NCBI RefSeq assembly: GCF_001029265.1
Contig: NZ_CP011856.1
Coordinates: 806,001 to 870,000 of the forward strand
DNA: 64,000 nt
Direction: 5' to 3'
DNA from: Spiroplasma eriocheiris
Lineage (GTDB): Bacteria > Bacillota_I > Bacilli_A > Mycoplasmatales > Mycoplasmataceae
This document shows, one piece after another, positions 48,414 through 53,849 of the stretch (the stretch's first letter is position 1; every line of letters begins with the position of its first letter). The translations under genes were made by a program, and so were the position numbers. The notes under the pieces were generated by a model. The model saw nothing but the letters and a program-made list of their open reading frames with translations. It did not search any database and had not been told where the DNA came from.

Positions 48414-50573
48414 TTAAATTACACAAGCATCACATTCATAATTTTCACTATCTGCTAATACTTCCTGGCGGACACGAACATAATAAATTGAGGAACACCC
48501 TTGTTTAAAAGCTCTAATATATGCTTTATTTAAATCGCGGGTGGTAGCAGTATCGGTCATAAATAATGTTAATGAAATTGCTTGATCAACATGTTGTTGA
48601 GCAGCTGCGGCAATATCAATAATTGGGTTTGGTCCAACTTCATAAGCTCCTAAGGCATAATAACCCATATTATCAAAATTAATTTGGTAAGCAGGCACAT
48701 ATACCCGCCCTAATTTTCCTTCCTTGCGAACTTCAACAGGAGCAACTACAGGTTGTAGACTTGGTGTACATGATGAAAGATAACTAATCGAGCCAGTTGG
48801 GGCGATGGCCATTAAATGAGAATTAGCCAGTCCCGTAGTTTTAATTTGTTCACATAACATAATTCAATCTTGTTGTGTTGGAATTGTCACATTATATTTG
48901 GTAAATAATGCTTTGACTTTATCAGTTTGCGGTTGGTATTGGCCCGATGCGCACTTGGTATATTTATCGAAATAAGAACCATCGGCAAATTTAGATTCAC
49001 TAAAGCCTTTAAAAACACCAACTTGTTGAGCCAGTTGATTTGATGCTTTAAAAGCATGGTAGGCCATTACATAGAAAAAGATATTTGTAAAATCAATTGC
49101 TTCCAGAGAATTATAAAATATATGATTAGTTGCTAAAAAACCATGGAGATTCATCGCTCCGAGACCAACCGCATGGTTTTTTTGGTTACCATATTCAATT
49201 GAAGGCGCACTTGCAATATTACTGTTGCGTGACACATGATCTAATGCCTTAATTGCTTGATAAATTGCTTCAGAAAACTCACTTCCACTTTCCATCATTT
49301 TGGCAATATTAACACTCCCCAAATTACAACAAATGTCTTCCCCAATTTTCTTAAAACTAAGATCTTCATTGTATTCACTGGGCGTACTTAACTGGACAAT
49401 TTCACTACATAAGTTACTCATCACAATTCGACCGGGATGGGCATTACGATTATTAACGGTGTCATCAAATAGTAAATAGGGATAACCACTTTCAAAATGT
49501 AATTCCGCAATTGTTTGGAATAATTTTCGCGCATCAATAAAGGTTTTTTTAATCTCCGGATTATTTAACATATTATAGTATTCTTTACTAATAGCAATAT
49601 CACTCATTGGTTTTCCATAAACTTTTTGAATGTCATACGGACTAAACAACGCCATTTTTTCATTATTTTTTGCTAATTCAAATGTAATATCAGGAATCAC
49701 CACCCCTAATGATAAGGATTTAATTCGAATTTTTTCATCAGCATTTTCTCGTTTGGTATCTAAAAAGAGCATAATATCGGGATGATGAACATTTAAATAC
49801 ACTGCCCCAGCCCCTTGCCGTTGGCCTAATTGATTAGCATATGAAAATGAATCTTCTAAAATTTTTATCACGGGAATAACCCCCGTGGCTTGATTTGCAA
49901 TGTTTTTAATGGGCGCCCCAAATTCACGAAGATTAGTTAAACATAAGGCCACTCCCCCACCGCGTTTTGATAACTGTAAAGAAGTTGAAATCGCACGACA
50001 AATAGATTCCATATTATCTTCAACTCTTAATAAATAACACGAAATGTATTCTCCCCGTTGTTTTTTCCCCGCGTTTAAAAAAGTTGGTGTTGCAGGTTGA
50101 AAGCGCCCTAACATCATTTCTTTTAAAATTGCTTGGGCAGCTTTAAAATCACCATCGCCAAAAAATAACGCATTCATTACTACCCGCTCTTCATAAGTTT
50201 CTAAATATTGTTGATTATCAAATGTTTTTAAAGCATAGGAGTTAAAAAATTTTAACGCTCCCATAAAACTAGGAAAGTGATGATGATAGTTTTTAGCAAG
50301 CGTTGTTAATTTTTCAATTTCTTCTATTTGATATTTATTAATAATTGTTTCATCATAGTATTGTTCTTTTACTAAGTAGGCGATGCGTTCTTTAACATCG
50401 CTAAACTTTTTAAGATTTGGTAACACATGGTGGTTTAAATAACTTTCAGCAGCTAACACGTCTAATTGAAAATTATCTTTTCCCCGTTCAAATAGTTTTG
50501 ATTTTGCATTTAAAGCAATGTATTCTTCATTATCTCCATTATTTGCTAACAGAGAAACTTTATTTGTCTTCAT
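48414..50573 (-). CDS. nrdE: Ribonucleotide reductase alpha subunit, class Ib type
   Basis: Reduces ribonucleoside diphosphates to deoxy forms. The 719-residue length fits NrdE. The ATP-cone is short or absent. Active-site Cys lie in YISCYLL, NLCSEIV and the C-terminal pair in CDACVI, which shuttles electrons from NrdH-type redoxins. GGGVALCLTNLRE and ISYLSSCTPSLQPV are family segments. I chose the ATG at 50573 with AAAGGAAT upstream. It is last in the nrdF-nrdI-nrdE operon under the cobalamin riboswitch. Confidence 0.95.
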
Positions 50574-50578
50574 AAATT

Positions 50579-51034
50579 CTATTCCTTTCAAAAATCACTT
50601 AATATTTTTTTGATAGTTTTAACATCTTGGGGAGTTCCTAGTAATTCAAATTGGTATAATAGCGGAACCTGTAATTTTTTGGAAAGAATTGGTCCAGCCA
50701 CCGCAAAGGTGTCGCCAAAATTAGTATTTCCTGAGGCAATGACCCCACGGCAAAACTGACGATTTTGGTGGTTATTTAAAAATTTAATTACTTGTTTAGG
50801 AACTGCTCCTTTATAATCATTGCCTCCACCCCCATATGTGGGACAAATCAAAACATAATCTTTCTCAACTAAGATTTCTTCTGATAAATCATAAGGAATT
50901 CGTGTATTTTTAATATTTAGTTTTTGGATAAAGCGGTAAGTATTATTTGATGGTGAGGAAAAATAAACAACATACATTTCACCTGTTGGTTTGGTAACTG
51001 ATTGATCGGAAACTCTAATAAAATCCTTATGCAT
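50579..51034 (-). CDS. nrdI: Flavodoxin-like NrdI
   Basis: FMN protein that activates NrdF. The 151 residues contain the phosphate loop [12 protein letters not shown] near residue 24 and the flavin-contacting segments [14 protein letters not shown] near 65 and [13 protein letters not shown] near 102. The gene does not end at TGA 50588-50590 but at TAG 50579-50581, adding Trp-Lys-Glu. In class Ie systems NrdI generates the oxidant that converts the active Tyr to DOPA. Confidence 0.95.
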
Positions 51035-51049
51035 AATTATTCCTTGAGT

Positions 51050-52072
51050 CTAAAATTCTCAATCTTCATCTTCAGTTTCTTCAGTAATCCCCATTACATA
51101 AGAAGAACCATTCCCAGAAAAGAAATCATGGTTTTCATCGGCACGGGCTGATAACTGGGTAAAAATCTCGGGGGCAATTCTTGTTTCTTCCTCACTAAAA
51201 GGTGATTCATAACCTAAATTTTGTAAAAATTTCCCAGCATTATATAAACTAAAGCGAATCGCATCTTCAGCTAATCCAAATCCTTCATAAAGTTCATGCA
51301 AATATTTTTTTTCTAAAATAATTAACTCATTTAGTAAATCAAAAACAAATTGTTTCATTTCTTCCTGTTGCGCGGGTGGTAATTTAGCAACTTTTTGTTG
51401 GTATTTATAACCACTATAATAATTATGAATAACTTTGTCTCTTAAAATTAACCGGATAATATCGGAAGTATTTGGGAGCTTACCACGCGCTGATAAATAA
51501 AATGGTAAATAAAATCCACCATATAGTAAAAATCCTGGCATTAAAGCAGCGGCGACTTTTGATTTTAGCGGATCATCACCAACATAATATGGAATTAATG
51601 CTTGGGCTCGTTCTTGTAAACTTTTTGTATTAATAACTCATTCATGAGCTTCTTCAATTTGCTCACTTGAACATAAAGTTGAAAAAATGGTTCCGTATGA
51701 TCGCGCATGAACAGCAACCATAAAGGCAAAGTTTGTATAAATAACTTGTTCATGATCGGTCAATGAGTTAGGAATTTGGGCAACATCGCCAACCGTTGCT
51801 TGGATTGTATCCAATAATGTTAAACCAGTAAATGTGCGGGTAATTAGTTGTTGCCATTCCGGATTTAAAGTACGTCATGATGTTAAATCATTAGAAACTG
51901 GGATTTTTTCTGGTAACCAAAAATTTTGGGTAATTCTGGTTCATACTTCTAAATCTTTATCATCATTAATGACATTTCAGTTAACTGACCGCATTTTCCC
52001 CTGAAAATTATTTTGCGCATATTCAAGGGGCGAAAGTGAATTTTGATAATATTTATTTTTTTGTGCTGCCAT
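51050..52072 (-). CDS. nrdF: Ribonucleotide reductase beta subunit, metal-free (class Ie) type
   Basis: Radical-generating subunit of 340 residues. The overall match to NrdF is strong (NWNVINDDKDLEVW, FTGLTLLDTIQ, ADENHDFFSGNGSSYVMG). Of the six metal ligands, Asp88, His122 and His216 remain, but the three Glu are replaced: Val119 in FMVAVHARSY, Pro179 in LMPGFL, Lys213 in RDKVIH. This Val-Pro-Lys set, with Tyr126 in HARSY, is that of the DOPA-radical enzymes described from Mesoplasma and Mycoplasma. AAAGGAG precedes the ATG. Confidence 0.95.
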
Positions 52073-52104: not shown

Positions 52105-52305
52105 CTATCTAAAATAATTTAGTAATTGCTTAATTAGCGATACTAAAATAAACCCAAAAGTAATCTGGATTTTTATAGTGTTCATCAATATTAATTCCCG
52201 TTCAATGCTAATGGGAGTTGTTAATAAATTATGAAGAGTTAACAAAAAACTTGTAATAATCCCTAAAACAACTTTTCCTTGACAACTAAAAAGCATTCAC
52301 TTCAT
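52105..52305 (-). CDS. Small membrane protein between riboswitch and nrdF
   Basis: A 66-residue protein with two hydrophobic segments (about 11-30 and 45-62), unrecognised. The ATG at 52305 has no ribosome site; the sequence before it (CTCCTTTCCC) is instead the complement of one. It lies directly between the cobalamin riboswitch and nrdF, so it is the first gene the riboswitch would control. It could be spurious. Confidence 0.4.
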
Positions 52306-52430
52306 TAGGGAAAGGAGTACAAATATTTTTAAATTATTTAAAAGTAATCAAAAAAAGCATTCGCAACATTATTAAAGATTACAAAATAATTTTGTTATTT
52401 CATTCCCAGGAATAACATAAATTTAGTGAG

Positions 52431-52571
52431 ATAACAGACTGGTTTCCTGGCTTAGCATCATTTTACTAGTTACCCTTCTCAAAGTTTCCTTTAATGGCTA
52501 TGTAACGTTCATCCGCATCACAGTTGCTGGGACAGCAAGAGAATCTAACTCTTTTCCCAAACATCTATTAT
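52431..52571 (-). ncRNA. Cobalamin (AdoCbl) riboswitch
   Basis: The minus strand carries the conserved blocks in order: GGGAAAAGAGTTAGATTC, then TTGCTGTCCCAGCAACTGTG, then GAAACTTTGAGAAGGGTAAC, and the B12 box ATGCTAAGCCAGGAAACC. AUAAUAGAU (52571-52563) pairs over nine bases with GUCUGUUAU (52439-52431) to close stem P1. The expression platform may be the stem AAATTATTTTGTAATC / GATTAC...AAATAATTT downstream, with a T7 in its loop; how it gates expression is unclear. It precedes the small membrane gene and nrdF-nrdI-nrdE. Confidence 0.88.
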
Positions 52572-52596
52572 TCCAAAGCTATTTAGTTGTAAACAT

Positions 52597-52668: not shown

Positions 52669-53849
52669 TTATAAAGATTTTTCGTTTTCATCAACATTTG
52701 ATGAAGAAAACTCATATGAGTCAAGGCGAGATATCTTCCCTATTTTAAGTCTTTTTTCTACATTAATTTTTTTCCGTAATAATAATTGCTTTCTTTTTTT
52801 AAAGTTTTTTGATTGTGTTACTACTAATTCACCCTCATTAATCTCTTGTTTTCATTTTTCTTGAATTTTGTGAATGGTATTCAAATAATTATCTATTAAT
52901 TTCTGGTTAAAAACTTGTCCATAATTATTAGCAGTTATAAATCTTAATAATCGGCTTTGAGCATTTAAAACATTTCACAAAAAAATTTCAAATTCCCCAG
53001 TATCGCTAAAAATAACATCGGTCATTTTGTGTTCTTTCTTTTGTAACTTTCTATTACTTAAAATTTGTTGTTTAAAATTTTTGAAAAAAGTAGGCCATTT
53101 TTCTTTTTTGATATAGCCTCATTCTTGATAACCCATAATTTGAAATTGCTCACTAAAATCGACCATTTCTTTAGTACGAATTTTAAAAGAATTTAAAAAT
53201 TTAAAATAATGTTGTGCAATATCAATAATAAGAATACGATCATGGAATTTTAAAAGCTCAATTAATTGATTAGTTTCGGTTTTAATTTTATGCAAATAAA
53301 ATTTTGCATAAAATTCAAGTAACTGAGAATTAGATTTAATTTCATTAAAATTAATTATTGTATCATCTTCAACAATAACATATTTTTCTAAAATTTTTTC
53401 AAAAGTTAATTCATTAAGTACGCTAAGAACTTCAAAATATTTTGGTTCTGACTTGCTATTAGTTGCTGAAGAATCATCTTGAGAAGCATTGGTCTCCGAA
53501 TCTTCAGACCCAATTGCTCGAATTTCTAATTTAACTTTACGCGGATGAATTGTGACGGTAGGAATAATTGCCCCTCGTATTTACTAAACTTAAAAATAAA
53601 ATTTGTCAATTCAGAAAATAATAATTGTCCTAAGTTTATTTGCAATTGTTGGTATATTGTTAACATTTTTTGTATTTTAGCAGACACTTTTTCTCATGCT
53701 CAGTAAGTTCCAAAAGGTTGGCGTTTATGTTTACTTATATCAAGTAATTCATTAAGACCAACTATTTCTGATAAATTTAAAGCAGTAATATCTTCTTCAA
53801 AAATACGATTAATTTCATTAATCAAAAGATTAGTTGAAATTGGATTCAT
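52669..53849 (-). pseudogene. Hypothetical gene with one frameshift in a G run
   Basis: From the ATG at 53849 a frame of 107 residues ends at TAG after a G4 run (C4 at 53571-53574 on the plus strand). One more G would continue into KYEGGAIIPTVTIHP and about 285 more residues to 52669, giving about 393 in all. The restored protein is soluble, with long helical Lys/Gln-rich segments and many aromatic residues. I recognise no family. The product, if frame is lost, is truncated to a quarter. Confidence 0.6.

Follow-up and report, generated by a model that had tools for sequence, protein, structure and literature searches.

A class I ribonucleotide reductase (RNR) operon of the crab-associated bacterium Spiroplasma eriocheiris raises two questions: does its small subunit NrdF work without a metal, and when would the organism make use of such an enzyme? 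The operon lies in a stretch of 64,000 nucleotides (the window), and the features discussed below are collected in Table 1. The genome is a single contig of 1,365,714 bases.

The VPK-type NrdF and its operon

Reading TGA as Trp, the nrdF frame translates from its ATG into 340 aa, with five in-frame TGA codons decoded as W32, W44, W66, W145 and W338, and the product scores over the TIGR04171 cut-off in a profile search. The initial annotation of this DNA had claimed that three Glu metal ligands are replaced by V119, P179 and K213, while D88, H122, H216 and Y126 are kept. The translation contains exactly these residues at the ligand and radical positions, and a phmmer search of solved structures aligned NrdF residues 1-340 without gaps to residues 6-345 of the chain in PDB 6gp2, the R2e protein of Mesoplasma florum (E 6.6e-207). 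Because this alignment is ungapped from residue 1 to 340, the NrdF numbering is that of M. florum, and the earlier assignment of the residue set and of the Tyr126 number to class Ie is upheld over the full length of the protein. The structures that follow 6gp2 in the ranking are further entries that we take to be class Ie, and then class Ib entries. NrdF also has Q91, Y163, L183 and F187, residues that rearrange with the radical in the M. florum structure (PMC7615503).

Across 139 related NrdF loci, the same seven columns read D-V-H-Y-P-K-H in 62, D-E-H-Y-E-E-H in 73 and D-Q-H-Y-S-K-H in four, and no intermediates between the VPK, three-Glu and QSK forms were found among them. The alignment of ligand columns that the initial annotation had proposed as a check gives NrdF the stated residues at these columns, and the recurrence of the VPK set at 62 of the 139 homologous loci, with no intermediates, rules out a sequencing or alignment artefact or chance. 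Identity to the VPK-type NrdF proteins of Mollicutes relatives is about 77-99%. The assignment of NrdF to class Ie, as a typical representative of the VPK branch already described, is well supported by these comparisons and by the gene order given below; the protein itself is one more sequence in that branch, from which 93 VPK genes have been counted in Mycoplasmatales (PMC11846895). QSK-type class Ie R2 proteins, as in Gardnerella vaginalis (PMC11846895), are likewise of the DOPA type and NrdI-dependent, but have Q/S/K where S. eriocheiris NrdF has V/P/K, and occur in different gene orders.

Retention of D88, H122 and H216 could be taken to mean that NrdF still uses a metal despite the VPK substitutions. 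We regard this as highly improbable, since the VPK enzymes of M. florum, S. pyogenes and A. urinae are described as metal-free R2e (PMC11846895) and NrdF has the same residues as these enzymes, including Q91, L183 and F187 in the second shell. By analogy with the characterized homologues, S. eriocheiris NrdF would carry out metal-free DOPA-radical chemistry. Apart from this protein the genome encodes no class I small subunit; a second, metal-dependent one was looked for and not found.

The genes nrdF, nrdI and nrdE follow one another on the same strand, in the order found in virtually all VPK genomes (PMC11846895). NrdE scores 977.4 bits against TIGR04170 (RNR_1b_NrdE; cut-off 750) and has the Tyr-Tyr and Cys motifs. 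The M. florum enzyme MfR2e (PDB 6gp2, 6gp3, 8bt3, 8bt4) shares the seven active-site residues, the numbering and the nrdFIE operon. A 66-codon reading frame in the nrdF leader was rejected as a real gene because it has no family match in profile searches; no Shine-Dalgarno-like sequence precedes its ATG. Elsewhere on the minus strand (region 52669-53849), the reading frames 53849-53526 and 53295-52669 would join into a single protein through a frame change near 53575 (after ...SKYEG / RGAIIPTV...), due either to a frameshift in the gene or to an error in the sequence.

Table 1. Features of the nrdFIE operon and its leader (positions in the window).
Feature	Position	Strand	Basis or remark
nrdE, catalytic R1 subunit, 719 aa, C-terminal CDACVI	48414..50573	(-)	TIGR04170
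nrdI, flavodoxin-like activator	50579..51034	(-)	TIGR00333 179.2 bits (cut-off 74.65); PF07972
nrdF, class Ie VPK-type R2 subunit, 340 aa	51050..52072	(-)	ligand-column residues, ungapped match to 6gp2
66-codon ORF in leader, probably not a gene	52108..52305	(-)	
Weak terminator-like hairpin, then U-rich stretch (tentative)	52245..52277	(-)	
P13 hairpin GTTATT..AATAAC, L13 CTGGG at 52409-52405	52394..52416	(-)	read in sequence
Cobalamin riboswitch aptamer	52420..52583	(-)	RF00174, full model 1-189
Aptamer loop L5 CCCAG, predicted kissing partner of L13	52527..52531	(-)	complementary to L13

Cobalamin riboswitches and the other reductases

A search of the whole window with Rfam at the gathering threshold returned one RNA, a cobalamin riboswitch whose aptamer lies 347 nt ahead of the start codon of nrdF (RF00174, 77.6 bits, gathering 31.5, E 2.2e-17). 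The genome contains exactly three cobalamin riboswitches, located before nrdFIE, before nrdDG (L036 6179-6349, with nrdD from 6524; whole locus L036:6179-9239) and before a putative B12-uptake operon that starts with membrane proteins of 165 aa and 243 aa (L038 4559-4728). At the last locus (L038:4559-9248), the riboswitch has a clear terminator and is followed by small membrane and lipoprotein-like genes. As the proteins of this operon match no Pfam family, the uptake label is tentative, and they are candidates for B12 uptake and binding.

Two further RNRs are encoded. The second large subunit in the genome is a class II NrdJ (1321 bits, cut-off 854), and class III NrdD and NrdG both score over their cut-offs; the presence of NrdJ and NrdD excludes class Ie as the only RNR. 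A CobA/BtuR-type cobalamin adenosyltransferase is also present (PF02572, E 5e-46; below the NCBIfam cut-offs) and, judged by its family, would make AdoCbl from imported cobalamin, while a PduO-type adenosyltransferase is absent from the genome. No cobalamin riboswitch precedes nrdJ in the genome, so that the B12-dependent enzyme lacks a riboswitch and the B12-independent RNRs sit behind one, which is the pattern of a B12-riboswitch RNR set.

These genes alter the conclusion that this organism likely makes its DNA precursors without metal in NrdF. The class Ie (VPK) assignment behind that conclusion stands, but the wider picture of NrdJ, NrdDG and the riboswitch had been missed. With NrdJ and NrdD/NrdG encoded as well, and a cobalamin riboswitch ahead of nrdFIE, the metal-free enzyme is in our view probably an alternative that B12 represses, and not the sole dNTP route. 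The case also cautions that one enzyme does not tell the metal needs of a whole organism.

A close parallel is known from Propionibacterium (Cutibacterium) acnes, in which cobalamin riboswitches are found at nrdAB and nrdDG, but not at nrdRJ; the proposal there is that NrdJ takes over dNTP synthesis in response to B12 (PMC3848588). Riboswitch placement and proposed isozyme logic are the same in S. eriocheiris; the class I operon differs, being nrdAB in P. acnes, while S. eriocheiris, a Mollicute, has the nrdFIE of a metal-free class Ie enzyme. With M. florum the enzyme type is shared, but S. eriocheiris additionally has NrdJ and NrdDG, and the nrdF leader carries a cobalamin riboswitch instead of the 2'-deoxyguanosine (2dG-I) riboswitch of Mesoplasma. 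We found no report of a B12-controlled class Ie operon, or of such a circuit in Mollicutes, in the open-access full-text papers searched, which is weak evidence of novelty. The enzyme kind is already known; the new part is its regulatory setting.

Distribution across the order

The positions of riboswitches, NrdF, NrdJ, NrdD and CobA were compared in 320 genomes of the order. Among the genomes that have NrdF, an intact riboswitch was observed directly upstream of nrdF in 13 of the 17 whose NrdJ is intact and in 4 of the 124 others (Fisher p 6e-12, a value that ignores shared ancestry). Counted by genus, the figures are 7/9 with intact NrdJ versus 0/23 without (p 1e-5, again ignoring shared ancestry). 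Counter to this association, NrdF and intact NrdJ occur together without an nrdF riboswitch in G179, G209, G067 and G293. A CobA match was obtained in all 17 genomes that have NrdF and intact NrdJ (17/17), although it is interrupted in G318.

Of the four genomes with an nrdF riboswitch but no intact NrdJ, three are close relatives of one genus (G314, G315 and G316; f11) that run counter to the association: the riboswitch is strong and CobA remains, although NrdJ is absent or broken. Loss is documented at several stages. NrdJ and CobA are both broken in G195, the fourth of these genomes, where the nrdF aptamer scores 38 bits, and four genomes without NrdJ and CobA (G183, G188, G189 and G190) contain aptamer remnants of 22-27 bits at the same site. 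At the class III locus, a close relative of S. eriocheiris, probably S. mirum (G168), has an nrdD pseudogene, and its nrdD riboswitch is down to 51 bits.

The class Ie nrdF genes of Streptococcus ictaluri, Lactobacillus kitasatonis and Atopobium, and those at two Mycoplasma/Mycoplasmopsis loci, showed no cobalamin riboswitch nearby. The Mesoplasma-type nrdF leaders that were tested have a 2'-dG-I riboswitch at the same position instead, a known arrangement in M. florum (PMC12268651). Outside the Mesoplasma genus group, 2'-dG-I riboswitches were also seen at class Ie nrdF at L159, L160 and L161 (genomes G202, G204 and G205) and at L139 (G153), two of the four barely over the gathering score. 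Within the genus of S. eriocheiris, six genomes (G165, G166, G169, G170, G174 and G175) gave no match to NrdF, NrdJ or NrdD in our scans and may import deoxynucleosides; all of these except G174 keep cobalamin riboswitches.

Leader architecture and the proposed circuit

A kissing loop between L5 and L13 is a feature of cobalamin riboswitches (PMC9600662). In 21 of 21 leaders we observed a CTGG loop equivalent to L13, and the partners change together in relatives, CCCAG occurring with CTGGG, and ACCAG with CTGGT or CTGGC. Judged by sequence complementarity of the motifs, L5 and L13 match in 20 of the 21; a small insertion interrupts the L5 loop of one leader. Most relatives have a clear terminator hairpin and U-tract downstream of the aptamer, which suggests that the bound riboswitch ends transcription in these bacteria. 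The S. eriocheiris leader is less easily read. In most relatives the nrdF leader is much shorter, a consensus terminator scan of this leader detected none, and its best terminator candidate was matched by 8 of 60 shuffles. The weak hairpin in Table 1 is the homologue of one in G168 (probably S. mirum), with one G-G mismatch in S. eriocheiris.

This leader could therefore be seen as a relic, with class Ie serving as the main dNTP source at all times behind an expression platform that has decayed in this lineage. The length of the leader, the want of a clear terminator and the mismatch in the hairpin homologous to that of S. mirum are all consistent with such decay, as is the loss of functional nrdD in the close relative G168. 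We nevertheless judge a relic to be quite improbable: L5 and L13 are still complementary, the aptamer score of 77.6 bits lies within the 68-91-bit range of functional-looking copies, and NrdJ and CobA are present here, whereas true loss elsewhere is accompanied by aptamer decay to 22-38 bits. A platform that acts on translation, in which the anti-Shine-Dalgarno sequence CUCCUUUC masks the GAAAGGAG site of nrdF, was also considered, as 8 nt of the leader, kept in G168, are perfectly complementary to the ribosome-binding site of nrdF. Partition-function folding gave this pairing a probability of 0.006 in S. eriocheiris and 0.29 in G168, the predicted pairing showed no dependence on the state of P13, and folding of the S. 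eriocheiris leader revealed no B12-dependent change at the ribosome-binding site. Relatives, moreover, use terminators. The complementarity is thus real, but with folding in S. eriocheiris against it we consider the translational platform unlikely.

Taken jointly, the evidence makes it very probable that nrdFIE encodes a B12-repressed, metal-free class Ie RNR that serves as an O2-dependent alternative to NrdJ. We infer ligand binding, the sense in which the switch works and, for this genome, its expression platform; the proposed circuit is as follows. With cobalamin in plentiful supply, the riboswitch ahead of nrdFIE would bind it, L5 would kiss L13 and nrdFIE expression would stop; nrdDG and B12 uptake would be shut off by their own riboswitches, leaving NrdJ, which has none, to make dNTPs. 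When B12 is scarce, nrdFIE would be released under oxic conditions or nrdDG under anoxic conditions, and NrdI together with O2 would supply the oxidant that converts Tyr126 of NrdF to the DOPA radical.

The metal-free enzyme of this crab-associated Spiroplasma is thus probably a backup for B12 scarcity, and its regulatory setting suggests the conditions under which bacteria rely on an RNR of this kind, namely a shortage of B12 in the presence of oxygen. The genomes of relatives form a natural series of joint decay that affects the B12 enzyme, the adenosyltransferase and the riboswitch. It is likely, if less so than B12 repression of the operon itself, that in a Spiroplasma lineage one metabolite-sensing RNA decides whether a cobalt-based (AdoCbl) or a metal-free (DOPA) radical generator serves the synthesis of DNA precursors, and that once the B12 enzyme is lost, the switch at the metal-free operon decays.
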